Shown here one piece after another: positions 6,439 through 18,450 of a stretch of 56,978 nucleotides of DNA; the first letter of the stretch is position 1; each line of letters opens with the position of its first letter. The notes under the pieces were generated by a model that did no database searches, was not told the DNA's origin, and worked only from the letters and a program-made list of their open reading frames with translations. Source of the DNA: a virus. The stretch lies in IMG/VR virus record IMGVR_UViG_3300034102_004028, positions 1 through 56,978 of that record; one strand, written 5' to 3'. The position numbers and the translations under genes are program-made.

Positions 6439-7013
6439 TTGACAGTGCAAAATTTCTGGAAGAAAACGGCTATCTTTTTCTTCCAGACTTTATAGATAAA
6501 GATAGCTGTAGACTTATGGCTGAATCGATGATTGAAGCTGTAGAGTCTGGTCGAGGTGAAAAGGACCCTCAGTGCCCAATGTCCTATTCTTTCATTGATG
6601 TTTTTGATAGCGCACATGATGAAATTTTACCGCATCTTAAAAAAGTGAGTGGTAAAAATTTACTGAAAACTTTTAATTATTGTAGACTGTATCAACCGGG
6701 TGAAACTTTAGAAAGACATACGGACAGAGACTCATGTGAATATTCAATAACATTAACTCTCGGTTTTGAAGGTAAACCTTGGCCATTTTTTATTGAGGAC
6801 AAAAAAGGATTCGAAAAAGAAATTTTAGCTTCGGTTGGTGATGTGATTTTTTATAAAGGAATTGAAAGACCTCATTGGAGAAATTCATACAAAGAAGGGA
6901 AGTGGCAAGCACAAGTATTTTTTCATTACGTCGATGCCGAAGGTGAATATAAAAACCAACCTATAATTGAAATGTTTAGAAAAGAAAAAAATGTTTTTGT
7001 TGAAAAAACCTGA
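6435..7013 (+). CDS. 2-oxoglutarate/Fe(II) oxygenase family protein
   Basis: 192 residues from a TTG that overlaps the phoH stop, with GAGGA seven bases upstream. It shows the iron-binding facial triad of the double-stranded beta-helix dioxygenases: His95-x-Asp97 (LERHTDRDS) and a distal His147 in ERPHWRN, preceded by GDVIFYKG. Arg149 or Gln158/160 could hold 2-oxoglutarate. Such enzymes are frequent in T4-like aquatic phages. Substrates may be nucleic acid bases, proteins or small molecules; none can be inferred here. It sits between phoH and a nuclease gene. Confidence 0.75.
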   Translation: MIDSAKFLEENGYLFLPDFIDKDSCRLMAESMIEAVESGRGEKDPQCPMSYSFIDVFDSAHDEILPHLKKVSGKNLLKTFNYCRLYQPGETLERHTDRDSCEYSITLTLGFEGKPWPFFIEDKKGFEKEILASVGDVIFYKGIERPHWRNSYKEGKWQAQVFFHYVDAEGEYKNQPIIEMFRKEKNVFVEKT

Positions 7014-7656
7014 AGCACTAAATTTTGATTTGAATGCTGAAAATTCTCCTTCAGGTAGACTTTATAAAACACCTTCAGGAGAAAAATATCCTTCCGTTAC
7101 AACTATACTTTCTTCATACGGAAAGAAACAACTGTTTGAGTGGCGCGAACGTGTTGGTGCTGAGGAAGCAAATCGTATAGCAGCCAAAGCATCACGCCGA
7201 GGCACGGCTTTACATACCGTTTGTGAAAAGTACCTACTCAATGAATTGACAGGTATGAAACTTGCTAGTATGATTCCTTCAACAAAGGAACTTTTCTTTA
7301 AAATGAAAAGCTTGTTGGATGAAAACATAACAACGGTTTATTGCCTTGAACAAGCATTGTATTCTGATAGAATGCGTATCGCTGGCCGTGTTGACTGTAT
7401 CGCCGAATGGAATGGCAAAATTTCAGTTGTTGATTTCAAGTCATCTACCAATCAGAAAGAAAAAGAAAAAATTGGAAACTATTTCATGCAATGCACCGCA
7501 TATGCATTGATGTATGAAGAAATTGTAGGTGTACCCATTGAACAGATTGTTGTTTTGATTGGTACTGAAAATGGACCAGGTCAAGTTTTTATCGAAAAGA
7601 AAGATGATTACATTGAAGAACTGGAAAAATACGTGAGGAAACACCATGACAAATGA
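6991..7656 (+). CDS. RecB/Cas4-like PD-(D/E)XK nuclease
   Basis: 221 residues from the ATG at 6991; an upstream ATG at 6967 lies deeper in the oxygenase gene and adds a Lys-rich leader. With the 6991 start, the motifs are His75 (GTALHTVCE), Glu120, Asp135 (AGRVDCIAEW), Asp148-x-Lys150 (VVDFKSS) and a QCTAYALMY helix with conserved Gln/Tyr. This is the order found in RecB-type exonucleases. A role in DNA processing, recombination or host DNA breakdown is likely. The 3' end overlaps the first PP-loop gene by 11 bases, so the cassette is joined to this operon; an internal promoter lies at 7246-7274. Confidence 0.8.
   Translation: MFLLKKPEALNFDLNAENSPSGRLYKTPSGEKYPSVTTILSSYGKKQLFEWRERVGAEEANRIAAKASRRGTALHTVCEKYLLNELTGMKLASMIPSTKELFFKMKSLLDENITTVYCLEQALYSDRMRIAGRVDCIAEWNGKISVVDFKSSTNQKEKEKIGNYFMQCTAYALMYEEIVGVPIEQIVVLIGTENGPGQVFIEKKDDYIEELEKYVRKHHDK
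7246..7274 (+). promoter_or_regulatory. Sigma-70-like promoter inside the nuclease gene
   Basis: TTGACA at 7246-7251, 17-base spacer, TATGAT at 7269-7274. It is the nearest candidate promoter upstream of the PP-loop/Bug cassette beginning at 7646. Being inside coding sequence, it needs experimental support. Confidence 0.45.
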
Positions 7657-8665
7657 TGAAATTTATTTTTACAGTGAAGATGGCACAAAATTCAAATCAA
7701 AAATTAGTGCTATTGAATACTCACAAAAAACTGGTCAACAAATAAAATTTTATTTCCATGATGAAATCTATTCCAAAGTGGACTGGAAAAAAGAGTTGCC
7801 ACATGATTTGAATTATTATTACAAACAACAGGCTCTACGGCTTCGTGAAAAATATGACTATCTGGTTTTAGCATATAGTGGTGGAGCAGACTCAACTTGT
7901 ATACTCGAAACTTTTGTACATAACAATATAAAATTAGATAAGATTGTTTCTGTTGGTGCATTTAGTAAAGACTCTGCTTGGGGTGTTGATGAGAATCACA
8001 ACGGAGAAATTTATCATAATGTTATTCCTTATGTGAAAGAGTTGGGCTTGGAATCTATTACAGATATTGTCGATTATACGAAATATCTTGATGGTGATAA
8101 TTTTAAAAATTTGTCCATATATCAGCATGGTTCAAATTGGGTTTATGAGATAGGTTCTTTTTTTAGTGTTCACAACTTTTTTTGGAGAGATGCTGAAAGG
8201 ATTTTGATACCTAATGAATGGAAAAACAAAAAGGTTGGATTCATATATGGCTTAGATAAGCCAGAAATAAATTTTCATGAACAAGAGTTTGTTCTAAAAT
8301 TTACTGATGCTCCGGTTATACTTTACGGAAATTCAAGTGGTTACGAAAATGTTGAGAGGGTTAGATTCTTTTGGAACCCAGAATTTACCGAGATGACGGT
8401 TAAACAAGTTCAAGAATTGAAAAGAACCAGAACTGTCGGTGCAAATCAAAAAAACATAGCTAAAGCACTCTATAATCTCAGAAAACCTTTATCGTTTGAG
8501 TCTCCAAAAACCGGTAACGTTTTTTGGAGTTTGAGAGATACCTATCTTAAAGACATGAAAGATACTGAGTTATTTAAATTTTATAGTGATGGTTTGAAAG
8601 TTTTGGATTCAACTGTCGGTTTCAAGTCTGTTGTACCGATTCCAACCAAAAACTATCACATATAA
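7646..8665 (+). CDS. PP-loop ATP pyrophosphatase-like protein 1
   Basis: 339 residues. The PP-loop SGGADS is at 78-83 after a hydrophobic strand (YLVLAY), marking the N-type ATP pyrophosphatase fold used by enzymes that adenylate a substrate (asparagine synthetase, QueC, TilS, GMP synthetase). Residues 1-70 form a separate N-terminal part with FHDEIYSKVDW. The same part and the later motifs KVGFIYGLDKP and FWNPEF...KQV recur in PP-loop protein 3 (10850), so the two are paralogues. No glutaminase domain is present, so any ammonia or sulfur donor must come from elsewhere. The substrate is unknown. Annotation pipelines may call such proteins PAPS reductase-like or asparagine synthase-like. Confidence 0.75.
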   Translation: MTNDEIYFYSEDGTKFKSKISAIEYSQKTGQQIKFYFHDEIYSKVDWKKELPHDLNYYYKQQALRLREKYDYLVLAYSGGADSTCILETFVHNNIKLDKIVSVGAFSKDSAWGVDENHNGEIYHNVIPYVKELGLESITDIVDYTKYLDGDNFKNLSIYQHGSNWVYEIGSFFSVHNFFWRDAERILIPNEWKNKKVGFIYGLDKPEINFHEQEFVLKFTDAPVILYGNSSGYENVERVRFFWNPEFTEMTVKQVQELKRTRTVGANQKNIAKALYNLRKPLSFESPKTGNVFWSLRDTYLKDMKDTELFKFYSDGLKVLDSTVGFKSVVPIPTKNYHI

Positions 8666-8668
8666 ATA
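8661..8668 (+). promoter_or_regulatory. Possible T4-type late promoter (TATAAATA)
   Basis: An exact TATAAATA spans the stop codon of the first PP-loop gene, 33 bases before the ATG at 8701. T4-like late promoters need only this -10 element. If active, the small protein and the rest of the cassette would also be made late. Confidence 0.4.
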
Positions 8669-8700
8669 ATAATTAAAGGCTTTTCAAATTGGAGAAAAAA

Positions 8701-9075
8701 ATGCCAAAATATGTAAAAACAATAGTAAAAAAATCTAGTATTATTCCTTGGCTCGCTGATGGAGTAGTTTCAGCAGATTCTGTACATTTAACTGAAGCAG
8801 AGAGACAGTCAATTATTGATGCCCGCACCGAAGGCGAAAGTTTTCCTGGTTACATAGGTTTTAACGTTACGAATGTTGGAAATACTCAAATGGTTTCCTT
8901 CGAATTCGACACACTTGAAAATTTGAATAATTTTATCAATAAAACACAGAAACCAGACAGTGGAGTCTATGACGATAATTCTTTAATTGTAAAATACAAT
9001 AAAATGTTGGTTGCAAAAATTAAAGAACTTGGTTTGTCAAATTCTTATCAAGTTACCACTTCAATAGAAACGTAA
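8701..9075 (+). CDS. Hypothetical protein inside the PP-loop cassette
   Basis: 124 residues from the ATG at 8701, which has GGAG six bases upstream; a TTG at 8689 lies before the ribosome site and is rejected. The product begins MPKYVKTIVKKSSIIPWLAD and has strands and helices (QMVSFEFDTLENLNNFI) suggesting a small alpha/beta fold, perhaps ferredoxin-like. No family is recognised. There are no Cys or clear catalytic residues. Its place between two PP-loop genes suggests a partner, carrier or regulatory role in the same pathway (inference). Confidence 0.6.
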   Translation: MPKYVKTIVKKSSIIPWLADGVVSADSVHLTEAERQSIIDARTEGESFPGYIGFNVTNVGNTQMVSFEFDTLENLNNFINKTQKPDSGVYDDNSLIVKYNKMLVAKIKELGLSNSYQVTTSIET

Positions 9076-9089
9076 TACAATTTTATATT

Positions 9090-9932
9090 ATGCCTGGTCG
9101 TGATGATTGGATAAAAATAGAAAATGGTTCTTGCTCTTTTGATTTTTCTGATTTGAAAATTTGGAAAAAGAAAGAATGTATTGACTATGCCGTTGAGAAA
9201 ATGGTTGAAAAGTCGGAGAATCTTTATCTTGCTTTGAGCGGTGGACTTGATAGTGAATTTGCGGCCAACTGTTTAATCGAGAGGGGAGTAAAATTTACTC
9301 CTGTAATCATGGATATACACACCAATAGAATTGAGAATTGGTATGCTCATCGTTGGTGCTACGAAAATACAATAAAACCCTTAGTTATAACTCTGAGTGA
9401 GGAAGAAGTCGTAAAAACTTTTCCTAAAATTTCTCAAGAAAGAAATATTCCTTTTTATTGTTCGATACCTATTATTTTGTCAAAAATGGTTTCTCAGAGA
9501 GAAGGAAATCTAATTTTAGGTGGTGAGGAAATTATCGACAGAGATTACTTTTTGAGTGGTGAGTTCAACAAAATGTCCGAAAAAATTAGTTTTTGTGAAT
9601 ACGCCTTTTGTGTTGAGCAGGAAAATTCAAATCATATTGGTGGTTTTCTATCGTACACACCAGAACTTTTTCTTAATTGTTTGGAAGAAATTGACTACTC
9701 CAAACCAGGTCAAATTGCTCTGGCTGAATACTATGGAGTATTGCCAAGACCGAAAATAAATGCTAACATTAATCTGGCTTTGTTGCCAGGTTTAAAACGT
9801 TTGAAAAATATTTTGGACAAAGATAAAATCGTCAATGTTTATGAAATGGAAAATAAAGACAGCTTTATAGACCAGGCAAAAAAGTCAAAAAAGATTACGA
9901 TTCAAGCAAAAGAATTGATGTTGTTTAATTAG
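9090..9932 (+). CDS. PP-loop ATP pyrophosphatase-like protein 2
   Basis: 280 residues. The PP-loop SGGLDS is at 50-55 (YLALSGGLDSEFAANCLIERG), which is the asparagine-synthetase or QueC form. Unlike the paralogues at 7646 and 10850, it lacks their N-terminal domain and their VGFIYG motif, so it is a separate branch. A later segment NLILGGEEIIDRD may be part of the substrate pocket. It probably adenylates a carboxylate or carbonyl on an unknown substrate. No Shine-Dalgarno is visible before the ATG; translation may depend on the preceding gene. Confidence 0.7.
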   Translation: MPGRDDWIKIENGSCSFDFSDLKIWKKKECIDYAVEKMVEKSENLYLALSGGLDSEFAANCLIERGVKFTPVIMDIHTNRIENWYAHRWCYENTIKPLVITLSEEEVVKTFPKISQERNIPFYCSIPIILSKMVSQREGNLILGGEEIIDRDYFLSGEFNKMSEKISFCEYAFCVEQENSNHIGGFLSYTPELFLNCLEEIDYSKPGQIALAEYYGVLPRPKINANINLALLPGLKRLKNILDKDKIVNVYEMENKDSFIDQAKKSKKITIQAKELMLFN

Positions 9933-9941
9933 GTATTTTTT

Positions 9942-10853
9942 ATGAAAATTGTTATCTATTTTTTATTATTCTTTTTCCTATCCGTTGCTAAAGCAAAAGA
10001 TAACGTTGAGTTGATTATCGCATCATCTCCTGGTGGTTCTGTACATCGTTATGCATTGCATATACAACCTGCATTAGAAGCCGCACTAGGTAAAAATGTT
10101 ATCTTGACATTTAAGCCAGGTGGTAATGGACTTATTGCGGCAAAAGAGTTACACACTTCACCTAAAGATAAATTGACTCTGTTGATAGGCAATCTAAATT
10201 CTCCGGAAGTCTGGCGCGAGAATTTCAAAAATCAAAAAATCATTGATGTTCAGAGTGATATAACTCCCGTTGCTTTTTTAGGAACTATTCCTTCAATTAT
10301 CTTTTCGAAACCGAATGGAAATTACAGTAATTTTCGTGGAGCTTTGGAATTTGGAAAAAAAGAAAAGTTGTCCATGGCTATAGCTATGAATACACCCAAC
10401 TTCAAATTGATGGAAGATTTACTCAACAAATATAAACAAGAAGAAAACCTAACACTCGTTCCTTTTAGAACTGGCTCACAAGGATTGCTTGGTGTTTTAG
10501 GTGGACATGTATCATTAGGTGTAACGGTGATTGATGTTTTGATTCCAGAATTCGAAAAGGGTAGCATTGTACCTCTTGCATTAGTGTATGAATCTCGTTT
10601 AAAATCACTTCCCAATATTTCGACTTTGAGGGAGTTAGGTCTCTCAATAGAAAATGAAGATAGGTATTACAACAATTTTTTCTTGTGGGCTAATGTAGAT
10701 AAGAACAACGAAGAAGTTAACAAAGTAAGAAATGTTTTGTCGGAATTTTTGAACGGAAGTCAATCTGAAAAATTCCTATCTTCGATGTTTGTGCAATTTG
10801 GACAAAATAATGTAAGAACACCTGAAAAATACCTGAACAAAATTTTAAAATGA
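9942..10853 (+). CDS. Exported Bug/TctC-family solute-binding protein 1
   Basis: 303 residues with a signal peptide (MKIVIYFLLFFFLSVAKA, cleavage after AKA), so it is periplasmic. The mature protein follows the Bug (Bordetella uptake gene)/TctC Venus-flytrap pattern: ELIIASSPGGSVHRYA, FKPGGNGLIAAKEL, a GVLGGHVSLGVTV hinge segment and LPNISTLRELGL. Family members bind carboxylates or other small molecules for tripartite tricarboxylate transporters, but many Burkholderiales copies are orphans, as here: no TctA/TctB genes are present. It is more divergent than the second copy at 12045 (S-P-G-G where that one has T-A-A-G-G-G). Rare in phages; likely acquired from the host. Confidence 0.8.
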   Translation: MKIVIYFLLFFFLSVAKAKDNVELIIASSPGGSVHRYALHIQPALEAALGKNVILTFKPGGNGLIAAKELHTSPKDKLTLLIGNLNSPEVWRENFKNQKIIDVQSDITPVAFLGTIPSIIFSKPNGNYSNFRGALEFGKKEKLSMAIAMNTPNFKLMEDLLNKYKQEENLTLVPFRTGSQGLLGVLGGHVSLGVTVIDVLIPEFEKGSIVPLALVYESRLKSLPNISTLRELGLSIENEDRYYNNFFLWANVDKNNEEVNKVRNVLSEFLNGSQSEKFLSSMFVQFGQNNVRTPEKYLNKILK

Positions 10854-12043
10854 TTATGAATGAGATAATTAAAATGTCCTCTGATTACAACAGACAAGAC
10901 ATTTTCGGTTACTATACAGTCGGAAAATTGAAAATGTATAGCCAAATTGAGGCTGTAGAAGTTTCAAGTAAATTAAATTTGCCAATTAAATGGCACTTTA
11001 ATGATGAGGTCTATAGTAGTTTTGACTGGAGTGTTGAGCCGACCGAAAGTCTTACCGAGTTATATAAAAAAAGATGTGAGCAACTGCGGGAAAAATATGA
11101 CTACTTGGCATTATATTATAGTGGCGGAGCAGACTCCGACAACATCTTAAATCACTTCATAGAAAATAACATAAAACTTGATGAAGTGATTTCTATGACA
11201 GACTATCAAGGAACACAAGATAGAATGTCACAGTTTAATGCAGAAATTTTCGAAGTTGCGATACCAAAAGTAAAAGAAGCACAAAAAAAACAACCACATT
11301 TAAAACATACGATAATTGATACCACTGATTTTGTTTTAGATTCTTATAAATCACTAAATCTAGACCAGATTTATAATCAAAACTTTTCTTTTGCTCCGTT
11401 TACGCTTGTTAGAGGAAAAGTAAAGTATTCTCAACAACACTGGAAAGAAATGTTTTCTGTAGGTAAAAAAGTTGGCTTCATTTATGGTGTTGAGAAACCT
11501 AGACTTAGTGTGGATGACAATTTTAATTTTAATTATTTTTTTACTTGTGCTACAATTGCTGCCGCGACAACTCCGGAACTTCAGAGAGAAAACAATCCTT
11601 TCGACTTTACTGAACTGTTCTATTGGAGTCCTGATTTTCCAAAAATTCCAATAAAACAGGCTCATGTCGTAAAAAACTTTGTTAAAAGTCATGGCTTAAA
11701 TAAATTTAAAAGATATCCTAGAGCAATCAACGAAGTGATTCGGCAGTTACCTTCGGGAACAAATTTTTCTCTGCTACATAATGGAGACTTCCTTTTGAAT
11801 GATGAATTGAATCGTCTAATTTATCCTTATTGGTACAACATACCATATCAGTATAAGGCTATAAATCTTATTCTCTATGAAAAAGATATTTGGTTTATTG
11901 GAAAAATGAACACTGAAGAACAAGCCAAAAACTGGAAAACTATAACACAAAAAGTTTTAGAGATAACAAAAACAGATTATAAAAAACAATCTTTTTTAAA
12001 TAACTCTACATTTAGTAGCAAATTATATAACTTAGGAAAATAA
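10850..12043 (+). CDS. PP-loop ATP pyrophosphatase-like protein 3
   Basis: 397 residues, joined to the binding-protein gene by an ATGA overlap. The PP-loop SGGADS is at 91-96. The region before it (WHFNDEVYSSFDW, then REKYDYLALYY) and after it (ENNIKLDEVISM) aligns closely with the protein at 7646, as do VGFIYGVEKP and YWSPDFPKIPIKQ. This makes it a paralogue with an extra C-terminal segment of about 60 residues. It should be cytoplasmic and ATP-using; substrate unknown. The physical coupling to an exported binding protein on each side is the striking feature. Confidence 0.75.
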   Translation: MIMNEIIKMSSDYNRQDIFGYYTVGKLKMYSQIEAVEVSSKLNLPIKWHFNDEVYSSFDWSVEPTESLTELYKKRCEQLREKYDYLALYYSGGADSDNILNHFIENNIKLDEVISMTDYQGTQDRMSQFNAEIFEVAIPKVKEAQKKQPHLKHTIIDTTDFVLDSYKSLNLDQIYNQNFSFAPFTLVRGKVKYSQQHWKEMFSVGKKVGFIYGVEKPRLSVDDNFNFNYFFTCATIAAATTPELQRENNPFDFTELFYWSPDFPKIPIKQAHVVKNFVKSHGLNKFKRYPRAINEVIRQLPSGTNFSLLHNGDFLLNDELNRLIYPYWYNIPYQYKAINLILYEKDIWFIGKMNTEEQAKNWKTITQKVLEITKTDYKKQSFLNNSTFSSKLYNLGK

Positions 12044-12044
12044 A

Positions 12045-13010
12045 ATGAAAAAAATCATGTATGCATTGATAGCATTTGCTTTGAGCTTTAATGTCTATTC
12101 ACAAAGTCCAACGGACAAACAAACTGTAAAAATTATTGTACCAACAGCCGCTGGTGGTGGTTTAGATGCCATATCAAGAATTGTTGGTAAAAATTTATCC
12201 GAAATCATGAAAGTTCCGGTCATTGTTGAGAACAAACCTGGAGCAAACGGCATCATTGCGGCCAAAAGTGTTCTAAGTGAAGAATCAAATGGAAGAACTT
12301 TGCTTTTTTACGCACCACATTCCTACACTCTCAATAATCTTTTCACTGAATCTGGAAATCAAACATTTGAGTGGGATAAAGAGTTGACACCAGTTTCAAT
12401 GATGTATTGGAGTCCCTTCATTCTTACTGTTAACAAAAAGCTAAACGTCAACAATATGTCTGAGTTGAGAGAGAAATTTAAAAATAAAGAAATTTCATTT
12501 GGCAGTACAGGTTCCGGAACACCATTGCAAATCTACTCAGAAGTTATTTTTGATAAACTCGGAATAAAATCGGTTCACGTTCCTTACAAATCATTACCTT
12601 TGGTGGTAAATGATGTGTTGAATGGAACTTTAGATGTTGTTGTTGCTGGTACAGGCACTGTTGCACCACACATCAAAGCTGGAAATTTAGTACCTCTTTT
12701 GACCTTTTCGGATAAAGTTAATGCTGAATTTCCTAATGTGCAAACTCTGACAGGAACTTTTTCAGAGTATTCTAACTTGAAGGTTGTTGGTAGTTTTCTT
12801 GTGAGTAAAGATACAGACCCTGCAATCAGGGAAAAGTTAAGAAAAGACATTGAGCTTGCGAAAAGAAATACCATGGAAGAATTGAGACAAAGAGGCTTGA
12901 TTGATGCTTCGGAAAGCATTGTATTGGATGAGAAAAAAATGAAGCAGGTTGAGAAGAATTGGATTACCGCAGTCGAGAAGGTTAAGAGTAGGCAACAATT
13001 GCCGAAATAA
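12045..13010 (+). CDS. Exported Bug/TctC-family solute-binding protein 2
   Basis: 321 residues, the standard Bug length. A signal peptide (MKKIMYALIAFALSFNVYS) precedes QSPTDKQ. Canonical family signatures are present: VKIIVPTAAGGGLDAISRIVG, VENKPGANGIIAAK, FGSTGSGTPLQIYSE, VPYKSLPLVVNDVLNGTLDVV, and PHIKAGNLVPLLTFSDK followed by FPNVQTL. The ligand pocket therefore looks complete and the protein probably functional in the host periplasm. No transporter genes accompany it; it could feed a host TTT transporter, act in sensing, or have been adapted to shield the cell during infection (the last is speculation). It is the last gene of the cassette, three bases before the tmRNA promoter. Confidence 0.88.
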   Translation: MKKIMYALIAFALSFNVYSQSPTDKQTVKIIVPTAAGGGLDAISRIVGKNLSEIMKVPVIVENKPGANGIIAAKSVLSEESNGRTLLFYAPHSYTLNNLFTESGNQTFEWDKELTPVSMMYWSPFILTVNKKLNVNNMSELREKFKNKEISFGSTGSGTPLQIYSEVIFDKLGIKSVHVPYKSLPLVVNDVLNGTLDVVVAGTGTVAPHIKAGNLVPLLTFSDKVNAEFPNVQTLTGTFSEYSNLKVVGSFLVSKDTDPAIREKLRKDIELAKRNTMEELRQRGLIDASESIVLDEKKMKQVEKNWITAVEKVKSRQQLPK

Positions 13011-13012
13011 GC

Positions 13013-13041
13013 TTGACAGCTAAATAATAAACCACTATAAT
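13013..13041 (+). promoter_or_regulatory. Perfect sigma-70 promoter of the tmRNA gene
   Basis: TTGACA at 13013-13018, exactly 17 bases, TATAAT at 13036-13041. Predicted start is about 13048, just before the acceptor piece of the tmRNA. Both boxes match consensus. Confidence 0.9.
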
Positions 13042-13048
13042 AGTGGTT
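13030..13048. repeat. Inverted repeat over the tmRNA promoter -10 box
   Basis: AACCACTA-TAA-TAGTGGTT: perfect 8-base arms around a three-base centre, with TATAAT inside the symmetry. Because the transcript should begin near its right edge, it is a DNA rather than an RNA element: a candidate operator. Confidence 0.6.
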
Positions 13049-13320
13049 ATGGTTGTACGAAGCAACTAGAAAAGTGTTCTGGACGGGGGTGCAAATCCCC
13101 CCACCTCCACCAGAAATATATTGCACTTCACTGATAAGGAAGACTGGTCGGCTGTATTCAACTGGCTAGTGCAGTATTTTTCTGATGGGGGTGTACTCAG
13201 CTATTCGACAGGGCAACAAGTACAGAAGTGGACAACTCACCAGAGTAGGTGTAAAAACTAAATCAAGTAAACGCAAACGATGAAAAGTTCGCATTGGCAG
13301 CCTAAACGCTGACTAGGGTT
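13048..13320 (+). ncRNA. ssrA: Circularly permuted two-piece tmRNA
   Basis: The acceptor piece comes first: T-stem GGGGG (13085-13089), loop TGCAAAT, CCCCC (13097-13101), then CACCTCC, discriminator A and encoded CCA (13110-13112). An intervening segment of 74 bases (13113-13186), expected to be cut out, follows. The coding piece starts at 13187 with GGGGGTG, which pairs fully with CACCTCC and places a G3-U70 wobble as required by alanyl-tRNA synthetase. The conserved TTCGACAGGG lies at about 13204-13213. A P2 helix joins 13220-13227 to 13077-13084 (7 of 8 pairs). The resume codon GCA at 13273 opens a tag reading ANDEKFALAA, with TAA at 13303. Two-piece tmRNAs are known in alphaproteobacteria, cyanobacteria and some betaproteobacteria; the tag is of betaproteobacterial type. 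The 3' end is approximate. Confidence 0.93.
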
Positions 13321-13322
13321 TC

Positions 13323-13363
13323 GATAGGTTTCCTCGTAACAGAATAACCTATCATTTATTTTT
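13323..13363 (+). terminator. Hairpin terminator after the tmRNA
   Basis: GATAGGTT (13323-13330) pairs with AACCTATC (13346-13353), followed by ATTTATTTTT. The loop is 15 bases, so it is a moderate terminator; it might alternatively include the last tmRNA pseudoknot. Confidence 0.6.
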
Positions 13364-13374
13364 AGGAGAAAAAA

Positions 13375-13935
13375 TTGAAATATAAAATGTCTTTTGTAGC
13401 ACTTGCTATGGTTCTTTCAACTGCGGCATCCGCACAATCGGTTTCTTTGACTTATGGTTATAGAGATTCTGATAATGGAACAACACAAACCGCAACCGGA
13501 ATTTCAGCTAGGATGAAAATTTCTGATACTTTGAGTGGTGATGTTGGTATTGCAAATTTGCAAGATAGAGAAAAACTGACCAATGGACTTAGAAGTGAGT
13601 TGGGTTTGACTTATAGTAAACCTCTAGTTTCGGTTTTTTCAGGAAGTCTTAGACTTTCTCACGGATTCAAATCGAATTCGGGTAAAGAAACCATTCAATA
13701 CTACAATATTGAACCATCAGTAACAGCAAAAATTCCAGGAACAGAATTTTCTGCTAGAGTTGGATATCGTTATCGTGACACATACAGTAAAAATGATAGT
13801 GACAGGTCTGATACCACTCGTTATGCAGTCATGTATGACCTGACGAAAAAAGATAGAATTGCTGTAAATTATGATGACCAACGTGGTGTAGGCGCGGCAA
13901 AACAAACCTCGCTAGTATACACTCGTTCGTTCTAA
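13375..13935 (+). CDS. Small outer-membrane beta-barrel protein
   Basis: 186 residues from a TTG with AGGAG six bases upstream, a start well supported by spacing. A signal peptide (MKYKMSFVALAMVLSTAASA) is followed by QSVSLTYGYR. The mature part consists of alternating hydrophobic/polar strands (VSLTYGYRD, GISARMKIS, LGLTYSK, GSLRLSHGFK, FSARVGYRYRD, RYAVMYDL, DRIAVNYDD, TSLVYTRSF) ending in Phe, the usual BAM-recognition residue of porins. About eight strands would fit. It is expected in the host outer membrane. The gene follows the tmRNA and precedes a cell-wall hydrolase. A role in superinfection exclusion, permeability or lysis is possible; none is shown. Confidence 0.75.
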   Translation: MKYKMSFVALAMVLSTAASAQSVSLTYGYRDSDNGTTQTATGISARMKISDTLSGDVGIANLQDREKLTNGLRSELGLTYSKPLVSVFSGSLRLSHGFKSNSGKETIQYYNIEPSVTAKIPGTEFSARVGYRYRDTYSKNDSDRSDTTRYAVMYDLTKKDRIAVNYDDQRGVGAAKQTSLVYTRSF

Positions 13936-15931: not shown

Positions 15932-16204
15932 ATGTCTGTGAAACAAATGTCTATCAATCAAATTTCGAGCGAAGCTGACCGCAAGAAACTGTTTGATGCA
16001 ATTAGAGAATGTTCCGATTCCATGACACGAATCGAAGGTGAAAAAGACTTCATCAAAGAAGCAACCAAAAAAGTCTGTGAAGATTTGAAGTTGCCAAAGC
16101 GACTTGTCAATCGCCTTGTCAAAGTTTATCATAAGCAAAACTATGATGAAGAAGTGGCAACGCATGAGCAATTTGAACAATTGTATGAAACGATTGTGAA
16201 GTGA
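15932..16204 (+). CDS. dsbA: DsbA-like double-stranded DNA-binding protein
   Basis: 90 residues, the same size as T4 DsbA (89), with an AAGGAG site. The pattern (LKLPKRLVNRLVKVYHKQNYDEE, then EQFEQLYETIV) matches the C-terminal half of T4 DsbA, where a helical domain binds DNA near late promoters. It also occupies the T4 position next to gene 33 and gene 59. Expected role: assistance to late transcription or DNA packaging on double-stranded DNA. Identification rests on pattern plus synteny. Confidence 0.75.
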   Translation: MSVKQMSINQISSEADRKKLFDAIRECSDSMTRIEGEKDFIKEATKKVCEDLKLPKRLVNRLVKVYHKQNYDEEVATHEQFEQLYETIVK

Positions 16205-16425
16205 TGCCAACAAAAGACGAAATGTTCAAGTTCCAGCAAGAGATAGAAACTCTTGTTTCTGGAACCGATTACAATTACATGGAAGCAATCGTAGAATATT
16301 GCAACCTGACAGGTATGGAAATTGAACTAGCATCAACCCTTGTTAACAAAGATTTGAAAGCAAAGATAGCAATCGATGCAGAAAATCTCAATATGTTACC
16401 GAAAGCCGCCAGACTACCAATATGA
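16204..16425 (+). CDS. 33: Gp33-like late transcription co-activator
   Basis: 73 residues from the ATG at 16204, which overlaps the dsbA stop (TGATG). Shorter than T4 Gp33 (112). Helical, with YMEAIVEYCNLTGMEIELASTLVNKDLKAKI, a pattern seen in Gp33 of T4-like phages, where it bridges the sliding clamp and RNA polymerase flap to activate late promoters. The C-terminal LPKAARLPI could be the clamp-contact tail. It supports the view that the ATAAATA elements in the window are late promoters. Gene 55 is not in the window. Confidence 0.75.
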   Translation: MPTKDEMFKFQQEIETLVSGTDYNYMEAIVEYCNLTGMEIELASTLVNKDLKAKIAIDAENLNMLPKAARLPI

Positions 16426-17006
16426 CAGGTTACGAAGCCTTTTCTCTTTATCATGTTCTGAAATTACACTTCACTTCCGATAGTTACGATTACTTCAAGT
16501 ACAACGGTAAATGTAACATCAACATTGAAACTTTCGAAAAGCGCAGAGACAAGTATCATTTCTACAAGTTGTCCAGGAAATATGAGAAAGATGATTACCA
16601 GGAATTCGTCATTTCTGCTCTCATGCAAAATGAAAATGCATGGGCAGGAACTCTACTTGAGGACGATACCTACGATAAACATCTGAAGCGCCAGGCAATC
16701 TTGCAAGCACTAGGCTATACATTCAAAAATGACTGTGCTATAATTCGTGAAGCAGGTGGCATTAATAGTGTCTTGAAAATTGATGAAGGTTATCCTCCTC
16801 TGTTGACAATGACTTTGCAGAATGTCACAACTATTGAAACTTTGTGCATACTTAATTCTTTTATGAATTTCTTGCCTGTTTGGAACCGAAAGATTAGTGA
16901 TACTATCCGATGGCCGACATTGCATAGAAAATTTGTGAAGTATGCACCCTTTATACTCTTTGATAAGGAAACGTATCGCAAACATGCGATTCAGGAATTG
17001 AAATGA
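16422..17006 (+). CDS. 59: Gp59-like helicase loader
   Basis: 194 residues (T4 Gp59 has 217), coupled by ATGA to gene 33. The N-terminus MTGYEAFSLYHVLKLHFTSDSYDYFKYNGK is typical: T4-like loaders share a GY(E/D)AY...K.HFT...YDYFKYNGK start. The C-terminal half with GINSVLKIDEGYPPLLTMTLQ also fits. Gp59 binds forked DNA and Gp32 and loads the Gp41 helicase. Gene 32 is two genes downstream, as in the T4 cluster but with a HAD gene inserted. Confidence 0.88.
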   Translation: MTGYEAFSLYHVLKLHFTSDSYDYFKYNGKCNINIETFEKRRDKYHFYKLSRKYEKDDYQEFVISALMQNENAWAGTLLEDDTYDKHLKRQAILQALGYTFKNDCAIIREAGGINSVLKIDEGYPPLLTMTLQNVTTIETLCILNSFMNFLPVWNRKISDTIRWPTLHRKFVKYAPFILFDKETYRKHAIQELK

Positions 17007-17494
17007 TTAAGAAAATTTATTTGGACATGGATGGTGTTCTCTGTAACTTCGAAAAGAAGTACATTGAACTTTTTGGTAAAGAACCGGCAGCCGCTGACCG
17101 CAATCGTAAAGAGTGGTCGGCTAACTGGGACAAATTTTGCCAAGAAGGACACTTCGAGAAATTGAACTGGTTTCCTGGAGCACATGTTTTGCTTGACCAC
17201 GTTAAGCGAACAAACATCACCACAGAAATTCTTTCTTCATCTGGCGGTAAAAAATACCATGATATGGTTGAAGCAAGTAAAAAGAAGTGGTTAAAAGAAC
17301 ATAACATTCTTTATAAGGCTAACATTGTTCCTGGTCGTTCGTATAAAACCGCATACGCAACACCAGAAACTGTATTGATTGATGATACTCCAGATATCAT
17401 TGAAGCTTTTAACAAAGCAGGTGGTCACGGCATTCTTCATAAGGATGTCGGTGAAACTATCAAAATTCTGGACAAGCTATTGACAAATGGCTAA
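17003..17494 (+). CDS. HAD-family 5'(3')-deoxyribonucleotidase-like phosphatase
   Basis: 163 residues. HAD motif I is DMDGVLCNF (nucleophile Asp8, acid Asp10), motif II is likely in ILSSSGG, and motif III/IV reads VLIDDTPDIIEAF. The small size and lack of a large cap match the 5'(3')-deoxyribonucleotidase class, which removes phosphate from nucleoside monophosphates; other small-molecule phosphatase roles remain possible. It overlaps gene 59 by ATGA and ends with the gene 32 promoter inside its last codons. Not part of the T4 59-32 order, so probably an insertion. Confidence 0.8.
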   Translation: MIKKIYLDMDGVLCNFEKKYIELFGKEPAAADRNRKEWSANWDKFCQEGHFEKLNWFPGAHVLLDHVKRTNITTEILSSSGGKKYHDMVEASKKKWLKEHNILYKANIVPGRSYKTAYATPETVLIDDTPDIIEAFNKAGGHGILHKDVGETIKILDKLLTNG

Positions 17495-17509: not shown

Positions 17510-17568
17510 GAATTTTGTGGATAAAAAAACATACAACGACATACATCGCATATACGAAAGGAAATATT

Positions 17569-18450
17569 ATGTCATTCGCTAATCTTAAACGCAACCGTGA
17601 TAGCCTTGATAAACTCACCAAGGCAATTGAGAGCACCACACAAACTGCTGAGGCTGGCTCCAAAGACGACACCCGATTCTGGACTCCTACTGTTGACAAA
17701 TCTGGCAACGGCATGGCTGTCATTCGTTTTCTTCCAGCACCTGGTGCTGATGGAGAAGATGGTCTTCCTTGGGTTCGTTTGTTCGACCACGGTTTTCAAG
17801 GACCTGGTGGCTGGTACATTGATAAGTGCCTGACCACACTTAATGAGAAGTGTCCTGTTTGCGAACACAACAACACTCTATGGAACTCTGGTGTTGAAGC
17901 AAACAAAGATATTGCACGTAAGCAAAAGCGCCGTCTTTCTTACATCGCAAACATCTATGTTGTTTCCGACCCATCTAATCCTGAGAATGAAGGCACTGTT
18001 CGTTTGTTCAAATTCGGTAAGAAAATCTTCGATAAGATTACTGAAGCAATGAACCCCGAGTTTGCTGATGAAACTCCTCTGAATCCTTTTGATTTCTGGG
18101 AAGGCGCAAACTTCAAACTGAAGATTCGTAATGTTGAAGGCTACCGCAACTATGACAAATCAGAATTTGCCGATAAGTCTGCATTGCTTGGTGGTGACGA
18201 TTCAGCACTTGAAAAGATTTATTCGCAAGAACATTCTTTGAAAGAAATGTCTGACCGTAAACACTTCAAACCTTACGATACTCTGAAGGCTCGCCTTGAT
18301 AAGGTTCTTGGTTTTGAAGGTGTTGCTCCTCAGAGCCGCGCTGAAGAAGTTGAGATTCCTGTTGTCAAAGCAAAAGGTGGAGTAAATATTCCATCTAGCG
18401 TTGATGATGATGACTTGGATTATTTCAAGTCTCTAGCAGAGCAAGAGTAA
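17569..18450 (+). CDS. 32: Single-stranded DNA-binding protein Gp32
   Basis: 293 residues (T4 Gp32 301). The start MSFANLKRNRDSLDKL follows AAGGA by five bases and carries the basic self-association segment. The zinc site His74, Cys87, Cys95, Cys98 (DHGFQ, DKCL, KCPVC) matches T4 His64/Cys77/Cys87/Cys90 in order. The core includes RLSYIANIYVVSDPSNPENEG, and the C-terminus is acidic (VDDDDLDYFKSLAEQE), as needed to recruit Gp59 and other partners. It coats ssDNA in replication and recombination. It has its own promoter, and an intrinsic terminator follows. Confidence 0.95.
   Translation: MSFANLKRNRDSLDKLTKAIESTTQTAEAGSKDDTRFWTPTVDKSGNGMAVIRFLPAPGADGEDGLPWVRLFDHGFQGPGGWYIDKCLTTLNEKCPVCEHNNTLWNSGVEANKDIARKQKRRLSYIANIYVVSDPSNPENEGTVRLFKFGKKIFDKITEAMNPEFADETPLNPFDFWEGANFKLKIRNVEGYRNYDKSEFADKSALLGGDDSALEKIYSQEHSLKEMSDRKHFKPYDTLKARLDKVLGFEGVAPQSRAEEVEIPVVKAKGGVNIPSSVDDDDLDYFKSLAEQE

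Follow-up and report, generated by a model that had tools for sequence, protein, structure and literature searches.

The stretch of viral DNA analysed here, IMG/VR virus record IMGVR_UViG_3300034102_004028 (56,978 bases; hereafter the window), is confirmed by sequence comparison to carry at 13013–13363 a complete permuted two-piece transfer-messenger RNA (tmRNA) gene, not a chance resemblance. This gene very probably specifies a functional phage-encoded tmRNA for ribosome rescue, an old inherited part of a T4-like group that is kept in one genomic slot. ARAGORN calls a permuted tmRNA at 13020–13396 (+) with the tag ANDEKFALAA, the sole RNA gene that it calls in the window. The Rfam search, which the sequence-only reading of this DNA had proposed as a check, places both two-piece models over their cut-offs: beta_tmRNA (RF01850) scores 124.6 bits (E 1.5e-37, 13000–13378; cut-off 84), the top score in its clan, and tmRNA_permuted (RF04321) scores 113.8 bits (E 1.7e-21, 13051–13305; cut-off 47) over the whole model (1–213). 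The acceptor piece lies 5′ of the coding piece on the same strand, which is the permuted order; G3-U70 (13189 with 13106) and A73 with the encoded CCA (13109–13112) are all present, and the tag frame has an alanine resume codon and a degradable end. The folding energy of 13049–13358 is 3.9 standard deviations under that of shuffled sequences. The permuted two-piece gene read earlier from the letters is thus recovered by ARAGORN and by both Rfam models, with correct limits, as 13013 is the first base of the −35 box and 13363 the final T of the run after the GATAGGTT/AACCTATC hairpin. The 7-bp acceptor stem with G3-U70, the T-arm, the CCA and the tag with its TAA had also been read rightly. The parts of the gene are as follows.

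13013–13041, + strand: sigma-70 promoter, TTGACA at 13013–13018, 17-nt spacer, TATAAT at 13036–13041 (12/12 consensus matches)
13049–13112, + strand: acceptor piece, 5′ end inferred (Rfam alignments, ARAGORN, covariation), with P2 5′ strand 13051–13056, helix strand 13075–13081, T-arm 13085–13101, acceptor 3′ strand 13102–13108, and A73 plus CCA 13109–13112 (CCA at 13110–13112)
13090–13096, + strand: T-loop UGCAAAU, read in the sequence, with G where a second U is usual (presumably tRNA position 55)
13113–13186, + strand: spacer of 74 nt, presumably excised, folding into a long hairpin that juxtaposes the acceptor strands
13187–13353, + strand: coding piece (ARAGORN, Rfam, covariation), with acceptor 5′ strand 13187–13193, D-loop 13194–13209, helix strand 13209–13215, P2 3′ strand 13232–13237, hairpin 13238–13251, tag and 3′ hairpin
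13199–13200, + strand: D-loop AG, counterpart of the T-loop G (U-type copies have GG here); in phage copies AG goes with T-loop G and GG with T-loop U
13273–13305, + strand: tag frame ANDEKFALAA-stop, resume codon GCA at 13273, TAA at 13303–13305 (sequence, ARAGORN)
13323–13363, + strand: 3′ hairpin GATAGGTT/AACCTATC (8 bp), then T-rich run ATTTATTTTT (sequence, fold)

The two pieces are joined by the acceptor stem (7 bp, 13102–13108 with 13187–13193), a helix of seven pairs (13075–13081 with 13209–13215) and the P2 helix of six pairs (13051–13056 with 13232–13237). The earlier description of a P2 helix of 7 of 8 pairs was right in that the pieces pair near the T-arm; this pairing is actually made of the latter two helices. 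The TTGACA box is also retained in several relatives (e.g. L122, L150, L163, L169 and L185), and neither the length nor the sequence of the spacer is kept in relatives. The long spacer hairpin beside the acceptor stem fits a precursor that tRNA-processing enzymes would cut, and excision within 13113–13186, with charging with alanine, may be inferred. The 3′ hairpin may also act as a transcription terminator; a terminator scan with a loop limit of 8 did not report it.

Selection on the structure was assessed in 23 phage copies from contigs with a related gp32 gene. Standard pairs occupy 96.1% of pair cells as compared to at most 84.3% in shuffles, and 23 of the 40 pairs have changed in both partners (mean 14.4 and at most 21 in shuffles), figures that are somewhat flattering because the shuffles ignore relatedness and the consensus structure was predicted on the same alignment. 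The P2 and seven-pair helices, which link separate pieces, both covary. Around an invariant G3-U70 (23/23 copies, and 86/86 in a wider viral set), the other acceptor pairs exchange among G-C, C-G, A-U and U-A. Covariation of the joining helices about a fixed G3-U70 is strong comparative evidence for a working two-piece molecule under selection. A decoy RNA that interferes with host tmRNA or SmpB, a role reported for a tmRNA-like RNA without a tag in mycobacteriophage DS6A (PMC11915505), is extremely improbable here, as a pure decoy would not need the reading frame and stop codon of the tag, the resume region or G3-U70, all of which are retained across phages. The tag ends are conserved, mostly as ALAA or near variants.

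That the window belongs to a T4-like phage, as had been supposed, is evident from its gp32, gp33, gp59, PhoH and baseplate wedge genes; the closest cultured gp32 relatives among the matches listed are cyanophages (54–57% identity). The tmRNA gene sits in a slot marked by the following genes.

6967–7656, + strand: PD-(D/E)XK exonuclease (phrog_298), upstream marker
15932–16204, + strand: gp33, downstream marker
16422–17006, + strand: gp59, downstream marker
17003–17494, + strand: deoxyribonucleotidase, downstream marker
17515–18450, + strand: gp32, downstream marker

Conservation of this slot was followed by two routes. Among 80 viral contigs collected for a related gp32, nearly all with enough upstream sequence have a permuted tmRNA about 3.6–7 kb upstream of gp32; five relatives negative by ARAGORN turned out positive with Rfam, and L178 is the only long gp32-related locus in which neither program finds a tmRNA. 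The second route used no phage gene, only a DNA pattern built on the T-arm and the end of the acceptor, which found at least 120 matching stretches in IMG/VR; the pattern demands a T-loop TNC, so GGC types are left out of this set (L002–L121). A tmRNA was placed in the slot if, on its own strand, it follows a PD-(D/E)XK exonuclease gene or precedes gp33, gp59 or gp32; this holds for 52 of the 65 confirmed permuted tmRNAs among the matches listed, and for 29/34 of those flanked by 2 kb or more at both ends. All copies found through gp32 (25/25) occupy the same slot. Judged by these contigs, the permuted tmRNA is an old, fixed and near-constant component in a large aquatic group of T4-like phages.

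The further apart two tmRNAs are, the further apart their slot proteins tend to be (Mantel r 0.59 for the exonuclease, 0.37 for gp32, 0.29 for gp59 and 0.15 for gp33; p 0.001 each, 999 permutations). This correlation and the shared slot suggest that the gene has probably been long inherited in this slot, with exchanges. The best Rfam type is beta and the tag is that of Cupriavidus permuted tmRNAs, as would be seen if a host betaproteobacterial tmRNA had recently been picked up, or if the gene were an integration scar at a host tmRNA gene. Such an origin is nevertheless very unlikely: the same slot is used in many T4-like phages, the tmRNA follows the slot exonuclease in its distances, phages of non-beta hosts have beta-type copies too, and none of the proteins examined looked like an integrase. 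In a FastTree phylogeny the window tmRNA also groups with other phage copies, apart from bacterial ones, although deep nodes are weakly supported.

For the long-inherited rescue tmRNA, the following course is envisaged. A host-type promoter would drive a single precursor, from which host RNase P and 3′ processing would take out the spacer, leaving two pieces held together by the acceptor stem and two further helices. AlaRS would charge the molecule via G3-U70, and EF-Tu with host SmpB would deliver it to ribosomes stalled on mRNA broken during infection. The ANDEKFALAA tag and the stop codon would then be supplied, so that ribosomes are recycled and fragments destroyed, to the presumed benefit of the phage. 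Three observations weigh against this interpretation: no SmpB gene was found in eight related contigs searched (of which the two largest measure 214 and 172 kb and none is rated as complete), the T-loop of the window is without the usual U55, and its D-loop exceeds that of most relatives by about 3 nt. The first of these points to dependence on host SmpB.

A working tmRNA might instead mainly tag host proteins for destruction and amino-acid recycling, perhaps via a phage ClpP, as proposed for the T4-like phage Melnitz (PMC9004378). A ClpP-family protease is encoded at 1230–1856 and the host-type promoter makes early expression plausible, but tmRNA acts on stalled ribosomes without choosing proteins by identity, ClpP requires ClpX or ClpA, and its link to tagging is only putative; this reading is rather unlikely. 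The protease matches PF00574 with 107 bits, and its active-site Ser, His and Asp seem present in a hand alignment. The gene may leave room for phage-assisted destruction of tagged proteins.

The elbow of the molecule, where D-loop and T-loop meet, varies in a concerted manner. T-loop UUC with D-loop GG, found in 79/79 standard and 44/46 beta bacterial tmRNAs, is replaced in the window by UGC with AG. The UUC/GG elbow is usual and not demanded by the family models; UGC/AG is a covarying alternative, seen also in alphaproteobacterial copies, as six alphaproteobacterial genomes with a UGC T-loop also carry D-loop AG. T-loop GGC goes with D-loop AG in 24/24 alphaproteobacterial copies. The UGC T-loop is found in 52/86 phage copies, as compared to 0/79 one-piece and 1/46 permuted beta-genome copies. 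Phage elbows comprise 33 GG/UUC, 49 AG/UGC, one GG/UGC and no AG/UUC (Fisher 2e-22, uncorrected for relatedness). The lone phage exception, L036, seems to stem from a single additional base that shifts the register; the longer D-loop of the window is misread by the fixed-offset pattern, as is that of L108. The covarying nucleotides would be positions 18 and 55 in tRNA numbering, and the D-loop/T-loop interaction is required for SmpB binding and function (PMC3968760). No description of this covariation was found in a limited check of the literature.

Mapped onto a 63-tip tree built from four slot proteins, elbow type shows 10 changes, as against a mean of 17.7 and a minimum of 11 in shuffles. 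The window (UGC) differs in elbow from its nearest relative L122 (UUC) at only 0.06 substitutions apart. Genes at 7646–13010 are 51–72% identical to those of L122, and genes past the tmRNA 89–98%. This step in identity marks a sharp boundary of recombination, which lies within the tmRNA gene or at its edge. L161, L151 and L166 have an alpha-type elbow, D-loop CAGGATCGA with T-loop GGCAGTG, and an altered neighbouring helix on both pieces; in their P2 strands and in the stretch ahead of the tag they are very similar to the window and L122. As the altered parts are contiguous in the permuted order, a single exchange could replace the whole tRNA-like domain, which seems to have been exchanged between phages as one matched block; stepwise compensatory change is a possible alternative origin of the elbow patterns. 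That the exchange serves to fit host SmpB is put forward as a hypothesis. A wider proposal, tentative and rather doubtful at present, is that T4-like phages exploit the permutation, which makes T-arm, acceptor stem and D-arm contiguous, to exchange the entire tRNA-like domain, as a cassette with a matched elbow (GG/UUC, AG/UGC or alpha-type AG/GGC), among otherwise similar tmRNAs and so fit the SmpB of different hosts, and that the sporadic betaproteobacterial permuted tmRNAs, often second copies, could derive from such phages.

Sharkady and Williams in 2004 reportedly recognised the betaproteobacterial permuted tmRNA as a third two-piece lineage. The window shares with this type (RF01850) the gene order, the hairpin after P2, the tag and the 3′ hairpin; it differs in its elbow (GG/UUC there), and in that its 3′ hairpin may double as a terminator. 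Comparison of the tag with tmRNAs of candidate hosts, proposed earlier, gave a divided answer: ANDEKFALAA is shared with second permuted tmRNAs in Cupriavidus, but those sequences lie outside the phage group. Three Cupriavidus entries (L221 on plasmid p2, L274 and L321) have such a second copy, with a one-piece tmRNA elsewhere in the same genomes. Both forms are present in 7/8 beta-type genomes checked, which suggests that the permuted copies were gained by transfer. The Gallionellaceae metagenome-assembled genome UBA12482 (L323; also L246) holds a tandem of both gene forms, a one-piece tmRNA at 851–1220 and a permuted one at 1503–1834 on the same strand, about 280 bp apart. A 3-kb contig of a bacterial bin (L309) carries a permuted tmRNA that falls within the phage group and, as an exception to the elbow rule, is GG/UGC; no slot gene was found on it, and it is possibly a phage contig binned with a bacterium. 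No direction of transfer between phages and betaproteobacteria is assigned, as phage copies lie between alpha and beta bacterial copies with weak deep nodes and doubtful one-piece rooting.

The tmRNA type was rejected as a guide to the host, and the beta type does not establish the betaproteobacterial host implied earlier, because phages of Stenotrophomonas and Synechococcus elongatus have beta-type permuted copies as well; the latter species seems to fall under the permuted-model cut-off among the control genomes, of which Caulobacter appears to be the sole strong one. Two TctC/Bug periplasmic receptor genes (9942–10853 and 12045–13010), a family nearly absent from the phage collection, lie in a cassette at 9090–13010, 5′ of the tmRNA, and alternate with two genes (9090–9932 and 10850–12043) that look PP-loop ATPase-like by eye. 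Related cassettes are found in L122, L142, L145 and L132. The TctC genes likewise assign no host, their plasmid matches being mainly from Burkholderiales at about 25% identity.

OM43, of the Methylophilales, is counted as a betaproteobacterium in older taxonomy. Permuted tmRNAs have been published in the T4-like phage Melnitz, which infects OM43 of the Methylophilales, and in pelagiphage Mosig (PMC9004378), so that the earlier statement that none was known from a T4-like phage of betaproteobacteria is not supported. Nor is the view that phage tmRNAs are uncommon: a 2021 database counted 53 two-piece forms among its 133 unique structures of phage tmRNAs (PMC9004378), and they are common in one T4-like slot of IMG/VR. 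A 2025 database lists 79 unique phage tmRNAs of all forms (PMC11915505). The window gene therefore adds one to the phage-encoded permuted tmRNAs already known.

Mosig is likewise T4-like, with its permuted tmRNA between a PD-(D/E)XK nuclease and gp33; its copy scores as alpha type as compared to the beta type of the window, and only one small gene separates its nuclease and tmRNA, where the window has its cassette. The copy of Melnitz, also T4-like with a permuted two-piece tmRNA, is reported as alphaproteobacterial-like, and a glutamine riboswitch reported in the same work (PMC9004378) was not found by Rfam in the window. Beta-type permuted tmRNAs are seen in Stenotrophomonas phage Marzo (T4-like Menderavirus, 94.6 bits) and Synechococcus phage BUCT-ZZ01 (94.5 bits, unannotated in its record); unlike the window, neither has a slot gene within about 2–3 kb of its tmRNA, and that of Marzo sits in a tRNA cluster. 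To our knowledge, judged from the open-access literature, there is no earlier description of the slot or its frequency, of the elbow covariation or of the apparent exchange.

These observations move the phage tmRNA from a curiosity to a near-constant component of an aquatic T4-like group, whose benefit would be testable in cultured relatives, and they bear on the number of times that the permuted tmRNA gene has originated in bacteria. If the tRNA-like domain is indeed swapped to fit the host, elbow type should follow host SmpB, which would indicate how phages retune a translation factor on a change of host.
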